Assembly (NCBI GenBank): GCA_022483465.1
Contig: JAKVNF010000001.1
Location: 1,116,001-1,180,000 of the forward strand
Length of the DNA: 64,000 nt
Direction: 5' to 3'
DNA from: Lachnospiraceae bacterium
Lineage (GTDB): Bacteria > Bacillota > Clostridia > Lachnospirales > Lachnospiraceae
Positions 2,583 through 48,909 of this stretch are shown piece after piece. Made by a program: the position numbers and the translations under genes. Positions within the stretch are counted from its first letter, which is position 1. Every line of letters starts with the position of its first letter. The notes under the pieces are model-generated. The model was given only the letters and a program-made list of their open reading frames with translations, was not told the origin of the DNA and searched no databases.

Positions 2583-3146
2583 TCAATGGATTTCGATCTT
2601 CTTGGTCTCATCCTTCTTGGCAATCGCGGTCTTGTTCGGCACGTTCAGCGTGAGAACACCGTTCTCATACTTCGCACTGATCTCCTCGGGCTTTACATCC
2701 TTGCCAACTTCGAAGGACCGCTCATAGGCAGATGCCGTGCGCTCTCTGCGCAGGTACTTGCCGGTCTTCTCATCTTTCTTGTCGGCATTCTCCTCGTGGC
2801 GGGCACTGACGGTCAGAACACCGTCAGAAAGCGCAACGTTGATGTCCTTCTTGTCGAATCCCGGCAAATCTGCGGTCAGCGTGAAGTGATCGCCGTTATC
2901 CACAACATCGGTCTTCATCGCGAGCTTCGTGAGCTTGTTGTTCATCTCATTGTAGGCGCTGCGAAGCGCTCTTGCATACTTTCTGCCTTCCTTGCGGGCG
3001 TGGCGCTCGATGCTCTTTTCGCTCTCGACCTCATCCTTCGTGGGAACCACCGGGACGATGTCGAACGGATCATAGGGATCATAGGCATCAAAGAAATCAT
3101 CCATCATATCATCCATATCATTTGTCCAAACCATCGGCATTAACAT
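2583..3146 (-). CDS. hsp20: Hsp20-family small heat-shock protein (copy 1)
   Basis: A 187-residue cytoplasmic ATP-independent chaperone. The ATG at 3146 follows AAGGAGG at about 8 nt. The N-terminus is unusually rich in Asp and Met (about residues 9-30). The alpha-crystallin domain covers roughly residues 65-175 and ends with GVLTLNVPNK and the IEI tail motif (residues 184-186) used for oligomer contacts. A second member lies at 54326-54757 with related ACD sequence but a shorter N-terminus. The leader of this gene is interrupted: an ISAzo13-family element (3223-5051) lies 77 bp upstream of the start codon, and the likely native promoter is now at 5159-5186. Expression is therefore probably lost or changed unless transcription crosses the element. 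Confidence 0.92.
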   Translation of the reverse strand: MLMPMVWTNDMDDMMDDFFDAYDPYDPFDIVPVVPTKDEVESEKSIERHARKEGRKYARALRSAYNEMNNKLTKLAMKTDVVDNGDHFTLTADLPGFDKKDINVALSDGVLTVSARHEENADKKDEKTGKYLRRERTASAYERSFEVGKDVKPEEISAKYENGVLTLNVPNKTAIAKKDETKKIEIH

Positions 3147-3447: not shown

Positions 3448-4848
3448 ATGGCTTCACCAATATATGATAGCGACCACGTTGATCATATTTTATCCAATAT
3501 TTCCGTCATTTTGCCCTATGTCAATGAGCGCCAGAGACGGCTGATTATAGGAGCTCTTTCTGATGCACTGGGTTATGGCGGCAAGTCTGCGATCAGTGAA
3601 AAATGCGGTGTGACACGTAATACCGTGCGCAAGTCCGACGAAGAGTTCAAGCTCATTATCGCTGATGCTGCCGGCGAGACTTCTACTTCCACAGAGACAG
3701 AAACCAAAAGTGACGAAGCAGAAGACTCTGGCACTGCGGATACCGATAAGGATTCTGAAATGTTGCTGGAAGCAACTCCAGAGCAGATTGTCGGGCTTTA
3801 TGATGGCTCCGTCAGCCTTTCTTCACTTGAAAGCAGACAGCGCCGCGCGGGTGGTGGCAGAAAAAGTGAAGCTGCGAAAAATCCGGAACTGATTCCTGCA
3901 TTGATGGAGATCCTTGACGACTACACCTATGGTAATCCGGAATCCGTGCTGCTTTATACAAACCTGAGTGATCGCAAGCTCTCAGCTATGCTCGCTGAGA
4001 AGGGCTATTCAGTTGGGAGAAATGTCGTCAACCGAATGCTGAAGGCACTCGGTTGGAGCAAACAACAGAACAAGAAGCTGAAGCAGGTCGGTAAGGAACA
4101 TCCAGACAGAAATGTGCAGTTTGAATTCATCAATGCAACGGGTAAAGAGGTTTTAGCTGCAGGGAATCCCATGATTTCCATCGATTGCAAAAAGAAGGAA
4201 AACATAGGAGACTATGCCAACAAAGGCAAGGAGTACAGACATAGCAAAGATCCTCGAGCGGTGCTTGACCACGATTTTCTGGATAAGGAACTTGGTCAGG
4301 TTGCACCATATGGTGTTTACGTCGTCAACAATAATACTGGGTTTGTAAATCTTGGAACCACACATGACACCTCCCAGTTCGCAGTCGCCAGTATACGTGC
4401 CTGGTGGTACACCGTTGGCAAGAACACGTTTCCTGACGCGACCATGATTTATATCACGTGTGATGGAGGCGGAAGCAATTCCAGCCGTGTGCGAATGTTC
4501 AAGACGGAACTGGCAAAGCTGGTTGAGGAAATCGGGATTCCGATTCAGATCTCTCATTTCCCGCCGGGAACATCAAAGTGGAACAAGGTGGAGCATCGCC
4601 TTTTCTCTGAGATATCAAAAAGTTGGGCAGGTAAACCGCTAATCAGTGTTGAAACTGTAGTTCAGTTGATCGGATCAACAACTACAACAACTGGTCTGAA
4701 GGTAACCTGTCAGCCTGATTACAATGACTATAAAACAGGTCTGAAGGCTTCTGAGGAAGAGTACGATAAAGTTGATATTGAATGGATCAATATCGGGACA
4801 TCTAACAAATGGAACTACATCATTCATGGGCTGAAAAAGGACTCGTGA
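3448..4848 (+). CDS. ISAzo13-family DDE transposase
   Basis: A 466-residue transposase; family members are about 400-470 residues, so it looks full length. The ATG at 3448 follows GGAGG at 10 nt. The N-terminal part has a helix-turn-helix-like stretch (KSAISEKCGVTRNTVRK), then an acidic linker, then the catalytic domain. Family landmarks are ISIDCKKKENIGDY (start of the catalytic core), DGGGSNSSRVRMFK (second acidic position) and HFPPGTSKWNKVEHRLFS near the end. It acts on the inverted repeats at 3223 and 5051. The gene looks intact, so this element could mobilise the miniature copies that share its ends. Confidence 0.9.
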   Translation: MASPIYDSDHVDHILSNISVILPYVNERQRRLIIGALSDALGYGGKSAISEKCGVTRNTVRKSDEEFKLIIADAAGETSTSTETETKSDEAEDSGTADTDKDSEMLLEATPEQIVGLYDGSVSLSSLESRQRRAGGGRKSEAAKNPELIPALMEILDDYTYGNPESVLLYTNLSDRKLSAMLAEKGYSVGRNVVNRMLKALGWSKQQNKKLKQVGKEHPDRNVQFEFINATGKEVLAAGNPMISIDCKKKENIGDYANKGKEYRHSKDPRAVLDHDFLDKELGQVAPYGVYVVNNNTGFVNLGTTHDTSQFAVASIRAWWYTVGKNTFPDATMIYITCDGGGSNSSRVRMFKTELAKLVEEIGIPIQISHFPPGTSKWNKVEHRLFSEISKSWAGKPLISVETVVQLIGSTTTTTGLKVTCQPDYNDYKTGLKASEEEYDKVDIEWINIGTSNKWNYIIHGLKKDS

Positions 4849-5208: not shown

Positions 5209-6961
5209 GGCCCTTTCACTTTTTTTGTGGGATGAGCCCTTCCTGACCGTCTCCGAGGTCCTCTGCCCCGGTCCTCCACAGGTGCCTTCTGCTCTCCGTG
5301 CATCTGTACTCCCGGGCGGACCGTGGGAGCATCGCCGAGGGGCCCACGGTCTCGGAACAGCTTTATCCATCAGATCCTCTTGTACGGATTTCTGGATGCA
5401 TCCATGATCTTTAGGAAAAAGTACTCATCATCTGGAAGGCCATAGGCTTTCCTGCGAATGACCTTGATGTGTGCGTTGATCCCCTCTATCTTCCCGGAGC
5501 TGATCGGATAGAGCCCGTATCCCACAATGCCGTCAAAGTGGTTCTCAATGAGCCTGGCAAACCAGAGAAAGTGCTCATTTTTCGTGCCCCTGCACCAGTC
5601 GATGATATCTGTAAACTTCTCGATCATCGTCGCCTGATTGGCTGAGGCATATGCTTCCTGCATGGCCTGCTTGATCAGATCACAGGTGAACAGCAGCTTG
5701 TTCGAGTTGATGATGTCGTCGTATCGCCGCTCGAAATCGTCATGGGTATGCCTGTAATCGGTCGTACCGAAGATCGCAGATCCCTTGCGGCACACCTTGC
5801 CCTCACGGGCTTCCTGATCGTGTTTCTGCAGGGACTCCCTGCTGGCACAGAGTATCTTCCTTGACCCCTTCAGGATAGCAGCTTCCTCGACCAGGCCTTC
5901 CTTCTTCAGGCGGATCTGTTCCTCCTTCCGAACCTCGGCAATGACCTTCTCGTTGAAGTTCTTGACGATGTGGAAATGATCATAAACGATCTGGATCCAA
6001 CCGCATTTTGCCTTGAAAGCCTCCTGGAAGTCGCTGTTCATATCCATGGCAACGGCCTCTACATGATGCATCCAGTCGTCACCCACCAGCTCCATGAATT
6101 CTTCTACAACGGCCTTTGTTTTGCCTGCTCGGATGAACAGCACCGCACCGGTTATCAGGTCTATGATGTGCGTCGCATATTTGTGTCCGTTATGCAGCTT
6201 GAACTCGTCAATGGCAAGATACCTTGCATAGGCGGCAGGCTTTTTGAGCTTGCCATTCTCATCCGCGTAAAGACCCTTCAGACGCTTAAGGTCGATCTTC
6301 TTGATCGTATTGATGTTGACGCCAGTAATGATTGCCGTGTCCGTAAGGGTAAATTCATCCATAGAAAGATAGCGGATGATCAGCTGCTCAAGCTCCTTTG
6401 TAATCATCGAATCATCTGCCTTGAACGCGACATCCGGTGTGATGGTCTTGCCACAGAGATTGCATCTCCACTGGTACTTGTCGCACTCAATGATGGTTTG
6501 GCATGCCTGAAAGGGAATGTGTTTGATCTTCGTGTGGTAGGTCTGATTCTTGTACATCCTGCGCCCGCAGCAAGAGCATACAGGATGGTCCAGCTGGTCC
6601 AATTTACCGCGCAGAATATAAGCCCTTTTGAAGGTATTCTCACTCAGTTTGCTCTTCCGCATGGAGTGGAAGGGCCTGACGTCTCGAATAGGAACCTCTT
6701 CAACGCTCTCCTGATGGAACCCCGTCAGGTGGCTTGGGAACATCAGATAGTCATTTTGAGTCCGGGCAGCAAAAGACATTTGCCCATTCGCCTCGGTGTA
6801 TGTATAATTCTGATTCATAAGAGGTTTCCTTTTTATCCCGTATTGCATATCTTGGGCGACGTGCAATCGAGATGATATCAGGAAATCTCTTTTTGTAAAT
6901 AGATGATATTCTCTATAGGCTGCCTTCTTTTAGTGCATCACACAAGAAAAATGAAAGACCC
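5209..6961 (-). mobile_element. ISL3-family insertion sequence, copy 1 (1753 bp)
   Basis: The left end starts GGCCCTTTCAC and the right end, read inward, starts GGGTCTTTCAT; 21 of the first 26 bases match. The target duplication is TTTTTTTC (5201-5208 and 6962-6969), 8 bp as usual for ISL3. It carries one transposase gene on the minus strand. Two near-identical copies lie at 54899-56968 and 62114-63867. This copy sits 15 bp upstream of the hsp20-1 promoter on one side and next to the terminator of the first array RNA on the other. Confidence 0.93.
5370..6818 (-). CDS. ISL3-family transposase (copy 1)
   Basis: A 482-residue transposase. The ATG at 6818 (MNQNYTYTEANG) follows AAGGAAA; the frame extends to 6866 without a better site. 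The N-terminal zinc-ribbon cysteines are visible (CSCCGRRM and CNLCGK, roughly residues 80-125). The DDE catalytic core includes LAIDEFKLHNGHKYATHI and AVAMDMNSDFQEAF, with the C-terminal SSGKIEGINAHIKVIRRKAYG typical of ISL3 proteins. It differs from copies 2 and 3 by only a few residues (for example LKGLYAD here, LKSLYAD there), so the copies are recent. It looks complete and could act on all ISL3 ends in the window. Confidence 0.93.
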   Translation of the reverse strand: MNQNYTYTEANGQMSFAARTQNDYLMFPSHLTGFHQESVEEVPIRDVRPFHSMRKSKLSENTFKRAYILRGKLDQLDHPVCSCCGRRMYKNQTYHTKIKHIPFQACQTIIECDKYQWRCNLCGKTITPDVAFKADDSMITKELEQLIIRYLSMDEFTLTDTAIITGVNINTIKKIDLKRLKGLYADENGKLKKPAAYARYLAIDEFKLHNGHKYATHIIDLITGAVLFIRAGKTKAVVEEFMELVGDDWMHHVEAVAMDMNSDFQEAFKAKCGWIQIVYDHFHIVKNFNEKVIAEVRKEEQIRLKKEGLVEEAAILKGSRKILCASRESLQKHDQEAREGKVCRKGSAIFGTTDYRHTHDDFERRYDDIINSNKLLFTCDLIKQAMQEAYASANQATMIEKFTDIIDWCRGTKNEHFLWFARLIENHFDGIVGYGLYPISSGKIEGINAHIKVIRRKAYGLPDDEYFFLKIMDASRNPYKRI

Positions 6962-6969
6962 TTTTTTTC

Positions 6970-7072
6970 GAACAAAAGCACCGCCCGGAAGCCGGGCGGT
7001 GCTGTGAGGGGGGAGTGTTATGAAAAAGCTGTTTTATTTGTTCCGGAGGGCTCTGTCATTTCCCTTCGAACA
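6970..7072 (-). ncRNA. Array sRNA A, C-rich anti-RBS small RNA
   Basis: The predicted start is near 7072, 7 nt after the -10 element. The RNA has a 5' hairpin (GAAGGG pairing with CCCTCC, with wobble, around the loop AAATGACAGAG), a linker, the segment CTTTTTCAT-AACA-CTCCCCCCTCA complementary to an SD-AUG-AAA-AA start region, then the terminator stem AGCACCGCCCGG/CCGGGCGGTGCT and T-rich tail. The ISL3 copy 1 target duplication begins at the very end of the tail. Confidence 0.7.
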
Positions 7073-7078
7073 AGGATC

Positions 7079-7132
7079 AGAATACCAGCCTCTTGTGTCT
7101 TGTTCTTGTCCTGCCCGTGAAGAAAGTGTGAA
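7079..7132 (-). promoter_or_regulatory. Four-box promoter of sRNA A
   Basis: Read on the minus strand: TTCACA-N5-TTCACG-N5-GACAAG-N5-GACACA-N9-TATTCT. The boxes begin every 11 bp (plus-strand 7127, 7116, 7105, 7094) and the -10 is at 7079-7084. There is no consensus -35, which suggests activation by a response regulator bound to the direct repeats. Confidence 0.7.
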
Positions 7133-7188
7133 ATCGATCTCCGTTTTTCGCTCGCTCTTGGGGAGATCTCTCCTGTTCTTCCCGGGGC

Positions 7189-7298
7189 AAAAAACAATCC
7201 CCCGGCGGCAGGGCCGCCCGGAGGATTGCTGTGAGGGGGAGTGTTATGAAAAAGTTTTTTCTGTTCTTGCGAAGGGCTCTGTCATTTCCCTTCGGACA
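7189..7298 (-). ncRNA. Array sRNA B
   Basis: The predicted start is near 7298. The 5' hairpin is CGAAGGG/CCCTTCG with loop AAATGACAGAG, followed by CTTTTTCATAACACTCCCCCTCA split across the SD/start-codon complement, then a long GC terminator stem with six Ts. The stem pairs differ from unit C (GAAGGG/CCCTTC here, GAAAGG/CCTTTC there), a compensatory change that supports the RNA fold. Confidence 0.72.
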
Positions 7299-7304
7299 GG
7301 TATG

Positions 7305-7358
7305 AGGATATCAGTCCCCTGTGTCCGGTTTATGTCTGTGCCGTGAAGAATCTGTGAA
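7305..7358 (-). promoter_or_regulatory. Four-box promoter of sRNA B
   Basis: Minus strand: TTCACA-N5-TTCACG-N5-GACATA-N5-GACACA-N9-TATCCT, boxes every 11 bp, -10 at 7305-7310. Confidence 0.7.
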
Positions 7359-7412
7359 ATCCAATCCCGCAGCTGCTTTCGCCCTTTCTGCCGGACCGGC
7401 CTCCGTAAAAGC

Positions 7413-7531
7413 AAAAACAATCCTCCGGGTAGTCATTAGCTGCCCGGAGGATTGTTTGTGAGGGGGAGTAAGTTAATGAAAAAGCTGTTCGCTTTGTCGA
7501 TCCGAAAGGCTCTGTCATTTCCTTTCGGACA
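7413..7531 (-). ncRNA. Array sRNA C
   Basis: The predicted start is near 7531. The 5' hairpin TCCGAAAGG/CCTTTCGGA has the conserved loop AAATGACAGAG. It is followed by CTTTTTCATTAACTTACTCC and CCCTCA, which match the complement of AGGGGGAGTAAGTTAATGAA. The terminator stem CCTCCGGG/CCCGGAGG ends in five Ts. Confidence 0.73.
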
Positions 7532-7537
7532 AGGATC

Positions 7538-7591
7538 AGAATACCAATCGCCTGTGTCCGTTTTTTGTTCTTCCTGTGAAGAAACTGTGAA
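7538..7591 (-). promoter_or_regulatory. Four-box promoter of sRNA C
   Basis: Minus strand: TTCACA-N5-TTCACA-N5-AACAAA-N5-GACACA-N9-TATTCT, boxes every 11 bp, -10 at 7538-7543. Confidence 0.7.
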
Positions 7592-7643
7592 ATCGTTCTC
7601 CTGTTCCGCGAGGACTGCTCCCGGGCAAAGCCCTGCACCGCAC

Positions 7644-7752
7644 AAAAACGCCGCCCGGCGTGCTGATTCCGGACGGCGATTGTGAGGGGGAGTGTTATGA
7701 AAAAGTTGTTTTCTGCTTGCCGCCGAAGGGCTCTGTCGGTTTCCTTCGGACA
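7644..7752 (-). ncRNA. Array sRNA D
   Basis: The predicted start is near 7752. The 5' hairpin CCGAAGG/CCTTCGG has loop AAACCGACAGAG, diverged at two positions from the other units. The anti-start segment CTTTTTCATAACACTCCCCC is kept, and a GC-rich terminator ends in five Ts. It is the promoter-distal unit next to the IS4-type element. Confidence 0.7.
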
Positions 7753-7758
7753 ATGATC

Positions 7759-7812
7759 AGATTACCAGCCGTCTGTGTCCTCTTCTTGTCCCTGTCGTGA
7801 AGAAACTGTGAA
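7759..7812 (-). promoter_or_regulatory. Four-box promoter of sRNA D
   Basis: Minus strand: TTCACA-N5-TTCACG-N5-GACAAG-N5-GACACA-N9-TAATCT, boxes every 11 bp, -10 at 7759-7764. Confidence 0.68.
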
Positions 7813-7938: not shown

Positions 7939-9587
7939 CTCAAACTTCCCACTTGGTCCGACCCTCGAAAAACGTTGAAAATACGCCCAAAACCGAGCTT
8001 TTTACTATGAGTTTTTCGGCTTCTTGACAATTGAAAAAGCACTCTGTGCCTTCTATAATAAGATCATCCACAATCAAAAGAAAGTACAGGTGCTCACAAT
8101 GAGTATACATCAAAACAAGCCAATTGCAACTGCTAATTTCGAGGACGAATGTGCGTTTGGAAACGCCATGAAAGAGCTTGGCGTAAGCGCTCTCCTGAAG
8201 GCCTCCAATATCACCAAGGCGAAGGGTGCCTCTGCATATGAGCTCTTTCAGTTTCTTGTAATCCTCGTGTTCCAGAAGTGCAACCTGTATCACTTCCTCA
8301 ACTCCAAGAAGAAGGATACTGCCTATGACGATAACACCTACTACCGCTTCCTGAATGAAGGACGCTACAACTGGAGAAAGTTCATCCTGCTCCTCTCCGC
8401 CAGGATTGCCGCCTATTTCACTACTCTTACCCGCGAGAACAGAGCACGATGCTTCGTGCTCGATGACTCTGTCATCGCCCGTAACCGTTCCAAAAAGGTG
8501 GAGCTGCTCTCCAATGTCTACAATCACGTGATCCACAGAACCGAGAGGGGATTTAATCTCCTTCTTCTTGGGTGGACCGATGGATACAGCTTCCTTCCGG
8601 TCCAGTACATCATGCTTGCTTCGGCCAAGGCTAAGAGCCGCATCTGCGACGTATACGACAAGCACCTGCGTCATAACACCAACGCGTACAAGAGACGGGT
8701 GGATGCAATTACGCAAAAGCCCGTGATTGCACTTCAGTTGCTTCGCTTCGCCATTGACGCTGATATCAAAGCCGAATACGTGCTCATGGATACCTGGTTC
8801 ACGACAGAACCGTTCATCTGCAACATCAAGAACCTCGGCCTTGAGGTGATCGGCATGCTCAAAGATACCAAGCAGCAGTATTGGTACAAAGGCAGGCTGT
8901 ATAACCTGAAAGGCCTTGCGAAGACTGCCATCCGTCATTGCCCGCAGGGGAACCTGTTCGGGTCCATTGTTGTCAAAACGAAGTATCAGCAGCTTCCTGT
9001 CAAGCTGGTCTTTGTCCGCAATCGCAACAAGAAGGATGAGTACATCATCCTTCTGACCACTGCGGTGACTCTGCCCGACAGTGAGGCAGTCAGAATCTAT
9101 GGCTACAGGTGGGGCATCGAGGTATGCTTCAGGGCATGTAAGTCCCTTCTCAAGCTTGGCAAGGAGTTTCAAGGACTCAGCTACGACGTAACCGACAGCA
9201 CAACTGCACTCGTGCTCACACGATTTCTCATTCTCGAGTATATCCGTCGCAAGAAGAATGATCCCAAGACCATCTGTGAGCTGTTCTTCGTCTGCTGTGA
9301 TGACATTCAGGATATTTCCCTGAAGCAGTCGATTGACCGTCTTGCTGCAATGCTGATCGAGGGGGTCAGAACAGGTGATGTCTCCATTCAGATCTCCGAA
9401 AAGATGCGTAGCGACCTGACGAACTGGTTTTCGACACAGCCTGAGTTTATACAGAACCTGTTCCGCGACTTCCTAAATTTGTTTCTAACAAGCGATAAAG
9501 TTGCATAATGCTGTCAAGTTTCAAAAAATCACCTGTTGAGCAAGAAACCATCGGCTGTTACAACATTTTTCAAGTGGGAAGTTTGAG
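7939..9587 (+). mobile_element. IS4-family-like insertion sequence, 1649 bp
   Basis: The inverted repeats CTCAAACTTCCCACTTG (7939-7955 and the complement at 9571-9587) bound the element. The target duplication is AACTTTA (7932-7938 and 9588-9594). The exact borders could shift by one or two bases. It holds a single transposase gene. It is inserted between the GGGAG ribosome binding site and the ATG of the acetyltransferase gene; the A of that ATG is the last base of the duplication. Confidence 0.85.
8099..9508 (+). CDS. IS4-family transposase
   Basis: A 469-residue DDE transposase from the ATG at 8099 (MSIHQNKPIATANFED), which follows AGGTG; the frame is open from 8024 but lacks an upstream site. 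Catalytic landmarks are CFVLDDSVIAR (first Asp), VLMDTWFTTEPFI (second Asp) and YGYRWGIEVCFRACKSLLK (Y-R-E signature of IS4-type enzymes). It appears intact, acts on the CTCAAACTTCC repeats of its own element and has no other copy in the window. Confidence 0.9.
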   Translation: MSIHQNKPIATANFEDECAFGNAMKELGVSALLKASNITKAKGASAYELFQFLVILVFQKCNLYHFLNSKKKDTAYDDNTYYRFLNEGRYNWRKFILLLSARIAAYFTTLTRENRARCFVLDDSVIARNRSKKVELLSNVYNHVIHRTERGFNLLLLGWTDGYSFLPVQYIMLASAKAKSRICDVYDKHLRHNTNAYKRRVDAITQKPVIALQLLRFAIDADIKAEYVLMDTWFTTEPFICNIKNLGLEVIGMLKDTKQQYWYKGRLYNLKGLAKTAIRHCPQGNLFGSIVVKTKYQQLPVKLVFVRNRNKKDEYIILLTTAVTLPDSEAVRIYGYRWGIEVCFRACKSLLKLGKEFQGLSYDVTDSTTALVLTRFLILEYIRRKKNDPKTICELFFVCCDDIQDISLKQSIDRLAAMLIEGVRTGDVSIQISEKMRSDLTNWFSTQPEFIQNLFRDFLNLFLTSDKVA

Positions 9588-12505: not shown

Positions 12506-13984
12506 TCAAAGAAATACTTTCCACTTGTCCCGATCCGGCTCCTGGAAGGCTGCCCGGTGGAACCGTTCCTTCATGGCAAAGGGCACGGTGCAGTCAAAGA
12601 TCGTCTTGCAGGAGATGCCCACATCCGCGATGGAGGGGTCATAGACCGGATTCGAGGAGGGATCCAGCGGATGGCACCGGACCCCGGGGATCGTGATGAT
12701 GTCCCGGTCTCCCTGGAAGCGGGTGTTCATCGCCCAGAGGACATCGTCCGTGTCAAAGATGTCCACGTCCTCGTCGACGAGAATCACGTGCTTGAGCTCC
12801 GTGAAGGCCGCAAAGGCGATCAGGGCTGCCTGCCGCTGCTTGCCCTCGTCCGTGGGGACGGTCTTGCGGAACTGGATGATCGCCATGTACTTGCCGCCGC
12901 CGGAACGATGGCAGTAGACATTGACCACCTTGCCCGGCATCGCCCGGTCAAGCATGTTCAGGATCGAGGCCTCCGTCGGAAGGCCGGCCATGTTGACGTG
13001 CTCCTCCGAGGGTCCGATGCAGGTCTGCAGAATGGGGTGCTTCCTGTGGGTCAGCGCCTTGACCTTGAGCAGCCAGCAGACATGGGATGCCTTCCCGTTG
13101 TAGCCCGGGAACTCCGGCATCGCGTATCCGGTGTGGCTGTTCTGATCCTCCACCACGTGATTGCTGCCGGGGAGAATCTCTCCCTCAATCACGTACTCGG
13201 CATTGGCGATCGCGTTCTCCTTCACCGTGAGGCAGGGGATCAGCTCCACCGGCTTTCCCCGCAGGGCGCCGGCGATCGAGAGCTCGTTGAAGCCAAGGGG
13301 CGTGGTCGGCGGCTCAAAGCAGCTGGTCACGCTGACTGCGGGGTCCACGCCGATGGACACCGAGATCGGAAGGGGCTTTCCCAGCTCCGTCGCCCGCTCC
13401 GCCATGGCACCGATATGCCGGGAGCCGGGCTGCAGAAAGATGGACAGGGTGTCCTTCGACTGGATGCACATCCTGTGGATTGTCACATCCGAGAGACCGG
13501 TGTCGGGGTGGGTGGCGTAGCACATGCCCAGGGTGACATAGGGGCCCGCATCCACCGGCGTGTTCTTCGGCGCCGGCAGGAGCTTGAACAGGTCAAAATC
13601 CGGATCCTCTGCCCGGTGCACCACTTCCTGCACCGGCGCGGGGCCGGAGATGACAACGGGCTGCACCGGATTGTTGGCGCAGTCCCGGATCCGGCGCCCC
13701 AGTTCTTCCTTTTTGCAGCCGAACATCGCCGCCACGCGGGCGCGGCTTGCCATCAGGCCGATCGCGATGTCCGTGTCCGGAAAGCCGATCACGTTGTGAA
13801 AGACCATGGCGGGGCCGTTCGTGTGGGTGGGCCTTGCCACGGTGCCACCCGCCCCGACGATCTTGTAGACGCCGGAGAGCTCCGCCTCCGGGTCCACCGG
13901 GATGTCGGTCTCGATCAGCTGTCCGGGCTGTTCCTTCAAAAATGCCAGCGCACTGCGCAGGCTGTCGATTTCCTCTGCTCTCAT
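12506..13984 (-). CDS. ubiD: UbiD-family decarboxylase, probable gallate/protocatechuate decarboxylase
   Basis: A 492-residue prenyl-FMN-dependent non-oxidative decarboxylase; the known gallate decarboxylase LpdC is of very similar length. Features are TIHRMCIQSKDT with the prFMN-contacting Arg at about 171, the PGSRHIG loop, and the acidic cluster AEYVIEGEI (residues 262-270) that holds the proton-shuttle Glu. It follows the tannase gene by 13 bp and precedes ubiX by 12 bp. The neighbourhood points to gallate as substrate, giving pyrogallol and CO2; protocatechuate or 4-hydroxybenzoate remain possible. The small LpdD-like subunit seen in some operons is not present. Confidence 0.88.
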   Translation of the reverse strand: MRAEEIDSLRSALAFLKEQPGQLIETDIPVDPEAELSGVYKIVGAGGTVARPTHTNGPAMVFHNVIGFPDTDIAIGLMASRARVAAMFGCKKEELGRRIRDCANNPVQPVVISGPAPVQEVVHRAEDPDFDLFKLLPAPKNTPVDAGPYVTLGMCYATHPDTGLSDVTIHRMCIQSKDTLSIFLQPGSRHIGAMAERATELGKPLPISVSIGVDPAVSVTSCFEPPTTPLGFNELSIAGALRGKPVELIPCLTVKENAIANAEYVIEGEILPGSNHVVEDQNSHTGYAMPEFPGYNGKASHVCWLLKVKALTHRKHPILQTCIGPSEEHVNMAGLPTEASILNMLDRAMPGKVVNVYCHRSGGGKYMAIIQFRKTVPTDEGKQRQAALIAFAAFTELKHVILVDEDVDIFDTDDVLWAMNTRFQGDRDIITIPGVRCHPLDPSSNPVYDPSIADVGISCKTIFDCTVPFAMKERFHRAAFQEPDRDKWKVFL

Positions 13985-28715: not shown

Positions 28716-28769
28716 TTCATAAACTTTTCACAATTTGTTCATACATTGTCCACAACCCCCTGATATGAT
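28716..28769 (+). promoter_or_regulatory. Four-box promoter of sRNA E
   Basis: TTCATA-N5-TTCACA-N5-TTCATA-N5-TCCACA-N9-TATGAT; the boxes begin at 28716, 28727, 28738 and 28749 and the -10 is at 28764-28769. It has the same plan as the four array promoters, on the opposite strand. Confidence 0.75.
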
Positions 28770-28775
28770 GTCATT

Positions 28776-28879
28776 GTCGAAAGGGAGATGACAGAGCTCC
28801 CCGAAGACGAAAAAGACTTTTTCATTTTCTTACTCCCCCTCATGCCGGTTCCGTTTCCCCCGGAACCGGCGCTTTTTTT
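28776..28879 (+). ncRNA. sRNA E, C-rich anti-RBS small RNA
   Basis: About 104 nt. The 5' hairpin GGGAG/CTCCC has the conserved loop ATGACAGAG. Then comes CTTTTTCATTTTCTTACTCC followed by CCCTCA, complementary to an SD plus AUG-AAA-AA region. The terminator GCCGGTTCCG/CGGAACCGGC ends in seven Ts. Only the pairing and the loop are kept in common with the array hairpins, so the stem has changed by compensation. Confidence 0.75.
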
Positions 28880-28927
28880 GTCTCAGACAGCTTCTTCTGT
28901 TTTCCTTCAAAAAGATTTTTCTTTCTC

Positions 28928-28981
28928 GTCATAACCCGTTCACACTTTGTCCAAACCAGAGCCACAAACCTCTGCTATTCT
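28928..28981 (+). promoter_or_regulatory. Four-box promoter of sRNA F
   Basis: GTCATA-N5-TTCACA-N5-TCCAAA-N5-GCCACA-N9-TATTCT; the boxes begin at 28928, 28939, 28950 and 28961, -10 at 28976-28981. Confidence 0.72.
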
Positions 28982-28987
28982 GAAACC

Positions 28988-29084
28988 ATCAGAAGGACGA
29001 ATGGATCTCCTCCTGAGAGACAGGCTATTCTTTTTCATAAATGATTCCCCCTTGGAAACCGGTCCCGGACGGGGCCGGTTTTTT
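28988..29084 (+). ncRNA. sRNA F, divergent member of the family
   Basis: About 97 nt. The usual 5' hairpin is replaced by a small CCTG-AGAGA-CAGG hairpin. The anti-start segment is kept in the form CTTTTTCATAAATGATTCCC then CCTT. The terminator ACCGGTCCC/GGGGCCGGT ends in six Ts. It converges on the chimeric pseudogene at 29153-30005. Confidence 0.65.
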
Positions 29085-29152
29085 CATGCCCAGCCGCAGG
29101 TTTTTCCGGGCAGCAAAAGAGCCTCCGGCACAGCCCGAGGCTCTGTTTCGAT

Positions 29153-48751: not shown

Positions 48752-48909
48752 TGTCCATTCTCCTCTCGATTGATAAACGAACTATAGCCCCGGAATGTGG
48801 CAGGAAACGGACGAAAATATGAACGGATTATGAACGGGCCGGACCCCTCTGCCCTGCGCTATAATGAGACTGTTGCAGGTCCCGGGGGCCTGCCGGAAAG
48901 GGAAAAGCG

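Follow-up and report, generated by a model that had tools for sequence, protein, structure and literature searches.

Analysis of a 64,000-nucleotide stretch of a Lachnospiraceae genome (assembly GCA_022483465.1, contig JAKVNF010000001.1, positions 1,116,001 to 1,180,000 of the forward strand; hereafter the window) indicates that an array of four small RNA (sRNA) genes on its minus strand, at 6970-7812, is real. As originally predicted, the genes belong to a redundant sRNA family with response-regulator-type promoters, a segment complementary to the Shine-Dalgarno (SD) sequence and the AUG start codon, and a layout like that of the streptococcal csRNAs; the family is kept in relatives. Because the same promoter array precedes the protease gene htrA, we consider it probable that a regulator of the CssR/CiaR/LisR type drives htrA together with these multicopy, csRNA- and LhrC-like sRNAs, which would cover the SD and AUG of mRNAs with AUGAAAAA starts.

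Repeat search and alignment resolve the array into four copies (U1-U4) of a 127-nt unit at spacings of 226, 233 and 221 bp, the three other copies being 70-79% identical to the reference copy over the 127 nt aligned; the predicted repetition of minus-strand units every 221-233 bp is borne out. Each unit contains the predicted parts: four TTCACA-like boxes spaced at exactly 11 bp, then 9 nt and a -10 element, a 5' hairpin, the antisense segment CTTTTTCAT-N4/N7-CTCCCCC and a GC-rich terminator-like hairpin. The window contains 5 instances of the combination CTTTTTCAT-N3-9-CTCCCCC, where 0.01 would be expected, and 4 instances of the double box TTCACA-N3-TCTTCAC with zero mismatches, the 1.2 expected for the double box being the figure for up to 2 mismatches. 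Genome-wide there are eight copies, where the original prediction counted six: U1-U4, U5 (28716-28885, plus strand), the divergent U6 (28928-29090, plus strand) and two on contig C3, one of which (L006) sits behind an mgtE-like gene (named by eye) and the other at C3:601633. An RNA-only covariance model from six copies (R1) recovers seven strongly (U5 as 28772-28846) and U6, at 28985, weakly (E 0.28, 19.7 bits); U6 reaches E 4e-6 and 28.9 bits once the promoter is included in the model, and a ninth R1 match (E 3.35) was not accepted as a copy. All 8 copies keep CTTTTTCAT.

The family extends well beyond this genome ("family" and "genus" of genomes being groups of the genome-search tool, which we infer to correspond to Lachnospiraceae). 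Records of Lachnospiraceae, Oscillospiraceae and other Clostridia-type bacteria supply most relatives of the window protein encoded at 12506-13984. R1 matches (E <= 0.01) occur in 26 of 200 family genomes, this one included; by eye these weak matches are mostly real gene starts read backwards, of the AGGGGG..ATGAAAAA type on the opposite strand, and a model of promoter plus RNA was therefore used instead for distant search. Homologues were recognized by eye in the family genomes G062, G031, G143, G139 and G051 (cut by a contig end) and in G217 of the same genus, and the promoter+RNA model (R2) combines this genome's copies with those of five of these relatives. R2 matches (E <= 0.01) in 272 of 397 family genomes, this one included and not all vetted; the matches read comprise the 25 top places and 62 rows (one row again the place of L194), with tandem or multiple copies in several genomes, such as G287, G414, G352 and G360. 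The covariance-model and Rfam checks proposed with the original prediction thus found relatives and no matching Rfam RNA family: the scan of the window gave no family at gathering score, that of 20 family loci nothing except one tRNA, and no title or abstract listed by searches of open-access literature describes the sRNA family.

The boxes are likewise present in the homologous arrays of relatives, with the same 11-bp consensus. An iterative family profile of 99 rows, representing 98 distinct promoters (90 from 72 relatives and 8 from this genome; L194 and L220 are one place), reads TTCACA/TTCACA/WWCAWA/TTCACA in 11-bp phase, 9 nt, TATANT, and C occupies its position in 92% of the promoters in box 3 and 97% in box 4. 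In the window the six sRNA promoters score 30-55 with this profile and the next unrelated place 19. With <=3 mismatches allowed, the box array is found 12 times in this genome: the 8 sRNA promoters account for 9 places, U5 being matched a second time in a register shifted by 11, and 3 lie elsewhere; the reversed pattern yields 1 + 1. A promoter-only model (R3, from 55 promoters), run on 20 mostly well-assembled genomes, matches in 19 and allows an independent check: among the R3 matches listed, 80 distinct promoter places belong neither to the training set nor to the R2 set, and in 34 of them TTTTCAT lies no more than 170 nt downstream (L327 and L329 among these being gene leaders), compared with a shuffle mean of 2.5 and a maximum of 11 in 500 runs, and with 12 of 80 in the upstream interval. 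In the 30 listed R3 loci and 60 fetched stretches (two fetched for other reasons), at least 98 distinct promoter places score >=17; TTTTCAT follows within 170 nt in 52 (two gene leaders), a second RNA described below in 21, and a gene within 130 nt in 13, leaving 12 with neither. Promoters of this type therefore lead to RNAs in 73 of the 98 places, two of these being the gene leaders.

Structural features are conserved across the family, although one structural argument of the original prediction is weak. TTT(T)CAT occurs in 97 of 99 family rows (partly by selection), and of these 97, one place being entered twice, 76 have a 5' stem of at least 6 bp (78%, against 39% in shuffles), 86 a 3' hairpin with a T-run (89%, against 21.5%) and 96 the C-rich motif (99%, against 34%; partly by selection, the motif being in the search model). 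Predicted folds of the window units often place the CUUUUU part in a short A-U stem and leave the C-rich part unpaired; the 9-bp 5' hairpin is not the minimum free energy fold in U4 and U5. The assertion that stem bases change in pairs is weak, since only 1 of 9 pairs is altered on both sides in 7 copies and 191 of 500 shuffles reach the same, and the U1 loop reads CCGACAGAG, not ATGACAGAG as had been stated. By eye, some subtypes carry the C-rich anti-SD part after or within the 3' hairpin rather than before it (L193, L199, L201, L206, L208, L223, L226; L190, L194, L195, L207, L240).

The link to htrA comes from a profile trained on sRNA promoters only. When the best PF13365 gene of each of 30 genomes, mostly picked for sRNA hits, is examined, an array scoring >=15 lies upstream of htrA in 24 (median 25.5 over the 30), whereas 4.8% of 393 control open reading frames (ORFs) from the same fetched loci score >=15, with a median of -19.9. 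One of the two htrA genes of this genome is preceded by the array: its locus (L372), where the start was misplaced in that test, scores 18.2-19.5 when scanned whole, depending on background, with the next place at -21, and boxes 3 and 4 read TTCACA-N5-ATCACA-N9-TATACT, spacing and -10 intact. HtrA-type proteases with the GNSGG motif follow 7 of the 98 promoter places, in six genomes, among the matches listed, and Pfam confirms Trypsin (Trypsin_2) and PDZ domains in two htrA genes; other genes after promoter places, some named by eye, encode ABC ATPases, an LCP protein, Cthe_2159-type proteins and, in one relative (L358), a regulator-kinase operon under the box array. Compared with the profile, the CssR box of Bacillus, quoted as TTTTCACA in the available part of one report (PMC6749698, citing Darmon 2002), fits the sRNA promoter consensus, and a passage of another (PMC12826053) gives CiaR, CssR and LisR as regulators of htrA. 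With this box array lying in front of htrA here and in the majority of the 30 genomes, and given the fit to the CssR box and the naming of these three factors for htrA, the regulator is most likely of the same functional type, a CssR/CiaR/LisR-type factor of secretion or envelope stress.

Comparison with known systems places the sRNAs close to two families and within neither. The csRNAs of the streptococcal CiaRH regulon are multi-copy and intergenic, with strong promoters under a response regulator, 11-bp-phased repeats and an unpaired segment complementary to SD and AUG, according to the accessible portions of two accounts (PMC8186281, PMC3091779). The units described here resemble csRNA (RF02379) in being multi-copy and intergenic with response-regulator-type promoters of 11-bp-phased direct repeats, in the unpaired SD/AUG-complementary segment between two stem-loops, present here by sequence, and, as far as those portions go, in that CiaR also controls htrA; they differ in the boxes, TTTAAG-N5-TTTAAG for CiaR but TTCACA/TTCACA/WWCAWA/TTCACA here. 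The Rfam csRNA model gives at best 26.1 and 22.2 bits against a gathering cut-off of 57. The streptococcal hosts of csRNAs belong to another bacterial class. LhrC1-5 of Listeria, under LisRK, are five copies with UCCC segments that bind the SD and with targets that include envelope proteins, as extracts of the literature describe them (PMC4132741, PMC5880928), and part of a further source presents evidence for LisRK control of htrA (PMC12826053). The likeness lies in a multicopy sRNA with a UCCC motif and, here by prediction, an envelope-stress regulator; the difference is that LhrC has three redundant CU motifs (loop A, linker, terminator loop), whereas U1-U4 have one UCCC segment, and that the LhrC accounts, in the same extracts, mention no anti-AUG UUUUUCAU. 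In U5 the 5' stem contains a further CUCCCC. Four of the LhrC copies lie in one place, and LhrC is among the Rfam families. No LhrC match at gathering threshold was found in the window and the loci scanned, where only tRNA and TwoAYGGAY matched.

The CssRS regulon of Bacillus (htrA, htrB) is alike in the box TTTTCACA upstream of the promoter and in its htrA member, and unlike in that the partial accounts name no sRNA member, whereas here RNAs follow the majority of the promoter places. In enterobacteria, envelope stress induces, through sigmaE, a protease together with the sRNAs RybB, MicA and MicL, which cut the synthesis of exported proteins; the stress logic is alike, while the regulator is another and the RNAs are other, Hfq-dependent ones. 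Because layout, copy number and the htrA link match csRNA and LhrC while the boxes and sequence models do not, we file the sRNAs as a new family that, judged by sequence and analogy, would work like csRNA and LhrC.

The proposed mechanism starts from four independent sRNA genes of ~100-125 nt, each with its own promoter and terminator. An OmpR-family response regulator would bind the four TTCACA-type half-sites in 11-bp phase upstream of the -10 and activate transcription; the induced sRNA would expose single-stranded CUUUUUCAU...CUCCCCC between the 5' hairpin and the terminator; and this segment would pair with AGGGGGAG-N-AUGAAAAA mRNAs, covering SD and start codon and stopping translation. 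AUGAAAAA starts being somewhat commoner among exported and membrane proteins, the sRNAs would thereby ease the demand on the secretion machinery, and HtrA would meanwhile clear exported proteins that have misfolded. What the sequence itself shows is the genes and their promoters, the conserved layout and the box array in common with htrA; expression, the regulator and its binding, in vivo pairing and the class of targets are predictions.

Candidate targets were sought by motif and by class. GGGG-N5-12-ATGAAAAA gives 25 rows in this genome. The eight sRNA genes account for 13; among the 12 at other places are, by eye, glycogen synthase, a lipoprotein, a TRAP-type permease (GGGGAGTGTCATGAAAAAG) and secreted proteins, and also cytoplasmic proteins and short spurious frames. 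An earlier test of MKK starts against export showed a larger effect, on a set biased towards such starts by how the loci had been fetched; it was therefore repeated on 499 genes whose loci had been fetched irrespective of the start, one sRNA-antisense frame having been dropped, and the effect was smaller. In this set an N-terminal hydrophobic stretch accompanies 11 of 23 ATGAAAAA starts and 111 of 476 others (p 0.012); a second cut-off for the stretch gives 9/23 versus 96/476 (p 0.037), and the strictest 7/23 versus 90/476 (p 0.18, not significant). Exported-like genes have a stronger predicted duplex (lower energy) with the U3 segment (p 2e-4); the anti-start part alone gives p 6e-4, the anti-SD part alone p 0.15 and a reversed-segment control p 0.24. 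The predicted targeting of AGGGGG...AUGAAAAA starts thus stands as plausible, with some enrichment among exported-like genes, but weakly tested and dependent on the cut-off; the class-level rule, that AUGAAAAA starts among exported-like proteins are the targets, is weakly supported.

What the units are can be read in two other ways. The plus strand might encode conserved short peptides (MKKLF...), for AGGGGGAG-N4/7-ATGAAAAAG resembles a ribosome-binding site and start there; however, the ATG frames opposite CTTTTTCAT run to 108, 19, 69 and 19 amino acids (aa) in U4, U3, U2 and U1, those in U5 and U6 stop within 28 and 20 aa (as far as read), and in relatives the opposite-strand ORF from ATG has a median of 15 aa, with 1 of 89 reaching 60 aa. 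Because the frames are short in this genome's copies and in relatives and their lengths are not conserved, the coding reading is rejected and the conserved product is taken to be RNA, as the original prediction held. That the units are instead a decaying repeat or mobile element, without regulatory function, is very improbable. Transposase genes of three different types (ISAZ013-type, ISL3-type and DDE_5/DDE_Tnp_1) do surround the array on both sides, at 3448-4848, 5370-6866 and 8024-9508, and a motif resembling an insertion sequence (IS) end lies at 6946-6961, just past the U4 terminator, and recurs after the C3:601633 copy; U5 and U6, however, have no such motif nearby, promoters and terminators are kept while the stems diverge, and homologues occur in many genera. 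Similar Hsp20-type genes are found in the window (2583-3146, minus strand; Pfam) and at L070 (2122-2685, plus strand), with sRNA genes upstream of each (U1-U4 for the first, the C3:601633 copy for the second) and the same IS-end-like motif between, so that Hsp20-type gene and sRNA surroundings look like a duplicated segment.

As to the regulator and the targets, the original prediction favoured a PhoP-like factor, and PhoP or PhoB driving the sRNAs in phosphate starvation has its attractions: PhoP boxes are likewise TT(A/T/C)ACA-type direct repeats in 11-bp phase, the pstS promoter of this genome carries TTTACA-N5-TTTACA, and an OmpR-type regulator lies near pst at C3:663221. The four pstS loci examined (this genome, G203, G214 and G031, of which only this genome and G031 carry identified sRNA copies) nevertheless stay at or below 3.4 whichever of three backgrounds is used, against 30-55 for the window promoters; their boxes are by eye of the TTTACA/TTAACA type, with T or A where sRNA boxes 3 and 4 have C. 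No pst-like gene is seen by eye after the 98 promoter places, among the matches listed, and the pstS family TIGR02136 was not found in three sRNA-carrying genomes (G139, G062, G217). The low pstS scores and the promoter-only scan without pst-like genes disfavour phosphate control, which we hold to be improbable; the regulator is probably not PhoP, and secretion or envelope stress is probably a better inducing condition than phosphate limitation. A caveat to the pstS score of this genome is an IS-like stretch with inverted ends (by eye; L127 900-1230) directly upstream of the promoter, which it may have split. It is a less remote but still rather unlikely alternative that the sRNAs act on a few dedicated mRNAs, or on a protein as a UCCC sponge, and not on a class of AUGAAAAA starts: the literature, in the parts available, names few targets for csRNA and LhrC and describes C-rich motifs binding SD sequences, and the class-level enrichment is modest, whereas the retention of CTTTTTCAT in all eight copies, that of TTT(T)CAT across the family rows and the frequency of TTTTCAT after promoter-only matches, far above shuffles, speak for the class.

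Several results weigh against the preferred reading, in which a CssR/CiaR/LisR-type regulator drives htrA and the sRNAs. The htrA test is affected by the choice of genomes and by the origin of the control ORFs noted above; 6 of the 30 htrA loci score under 15, one of them L372 of this genome, owing to its misplaced start, and the second htrA of this genome scores -2.4. The seven OmpR-type loci of this genome have no high-scoring array (top 8.3), and identification of the regulator by self-regulation in this genome was rejected on that ground; the L358 regulator is 27-41% identical to all seven OmpR-type regulators, with no clear winner. The full complement GGGGGAG-N3-9-ATGAAAAAG has no place in this genome outside the sRNA genes, the hydrophobic-stretch enrichment loses significance at the strictest cut-off, and the larger effect of the earlier export test came from the biased set. 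The sRNA family looks patchy in its own genus, where 11 of the 24 further genomes have R1 matches (E <= 0.1), of which the G217 one (L099) alone looks by eye like a homologue, and where R2 has no match in the one genome searched (G214). The upstream control for TTTTCAT is itself above chance, presumably because of tandem copies, 12 of the 98 promoter places have no recognised RNA or near gene, and covariation within the array (7 copies, 9 pairs) is not above shuffles.

Table 1. Promoters and sRNA genes of the family in the window; sRNA ends are predicted (for U1, start ~7 nt past the -10 and end at the terminator T-run), and scores are those of the family profile.
Feature	Position	Strand	Details
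U1 promoter	7759..7812	-	boxes 7812-7807, 7801-7796, 7790-7785, 7779-7774; -10 TAATCT 7764-7759; score 39.4
U1 sRNA	7642..7752	-	predicted ends; CTTTTTCATAACACTCCCCC at 7686-7705; 80.5 bits with R1
U2 promoter	7538..7591	-	four boxes at 11-bp steps; -10 TATTCT 7543-7538; score 46.8
U2 sRNA	7409..7531	-	predicted ends; antisense segment 7462-7484; strong 5' hairpin and terminator, folding z = -6.8
U3 promoter	7305..7358	-	four boxes; -10 TATCCT; score 40.2
U3 sRNA	7187..7298	-	predicted ends; antisense segment 7235-7254
U4 promoter	7079..7132	-	four boxes; -10 TATTCT; score 42.1
U4 sRNA	6973..7072	-	predicted ends; antisense segment 7009-7028
U5 promoter	28716..28769	+	boxes TTCATA/TTCACA/TTCATA/TCCACA; -10 TATGAT; score 46.1
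U5 sRNA	28776..28882	+	predicted ends; CTTTTTCATTTTCTTACTCCCCC 28817-28839; GC-rich terminator
U6 promoter	28928..28981	+	divergent copy, tandem to U5; score 29.8
U6 sRNA	28988..29086	+	predicted ends; CTTTTTCATAAATGATTCCCCC and terminator; 5' part divergent
Possible further promoter of same type	48779..48834	-	before small membrane-protein-like ORF; score 19.0, unconfirmed; Pfam: no family for first 126 aa

Other RNAs and genes occur behind the same promoter. The second conserved RNA, at 21 places in 8 genomes, consists of a GATAGTTG..CAACTATC hairpin, CTCCCCCCTCATAAAGTAA, a hairpin, CACTTTACTCTCATTCCTTTAGATAACTATAAC and a terminator (L283, L286, L290, L291, L301, L304, L306, L316, L317, L322, L323, L331, L339, L348, L355), and often has at least two copies within a few kb; 12 of its loci compared with Rfam at gathering threshold gave no match at these places. 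A third RNA type, GCAGTCAGAG..CTACATATGTTT..CTAAGTCGGCGG..GCCGGCTCAACCTAAT, is found in two genomes (L314:6092, plus strand; L342:1743, minus strand). In this genome, a four-box array at L362 ~3493-3548 (C3:293992), scoring 20.8, 14.4 or 9.6 depending on background, precedes the gene of a secreted NPCBM/NEW3-like protein; an ORF that by eye resembles an ABC permease follows farther along.

Taken further, and more tentatively, these observations may outline a secretion-stress regulon, widespread in the family, whose main output is RNA: one regulator would drive htrA and several unrelated families of multi-copy sRNAs, of which the anti-start family would read the common AUG-AAA-AAR opening of signal peptides, a single short seed braking the exported proteome as a class. 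If true, this would be a Gram-positive counterpart of the sigmaE protease-plus-sRNA response, and the class-level target rule would be a simple means to slow export under stress. It would show that htrA and multicopy anti-SD sRNAs under one two-component system, as with CiaRH in Streptococcus and LisRK in Listeria, are a wider Firmicutes design. Because the promoter profile alone finds both the RNAs and htrA, the regulon can be mapped in sequenced relatives. For a large family of gut bacteria the findings would provide a set of sRNAs for stress, together with their promoter code, their copy numbers and a predicted rule for their targets.

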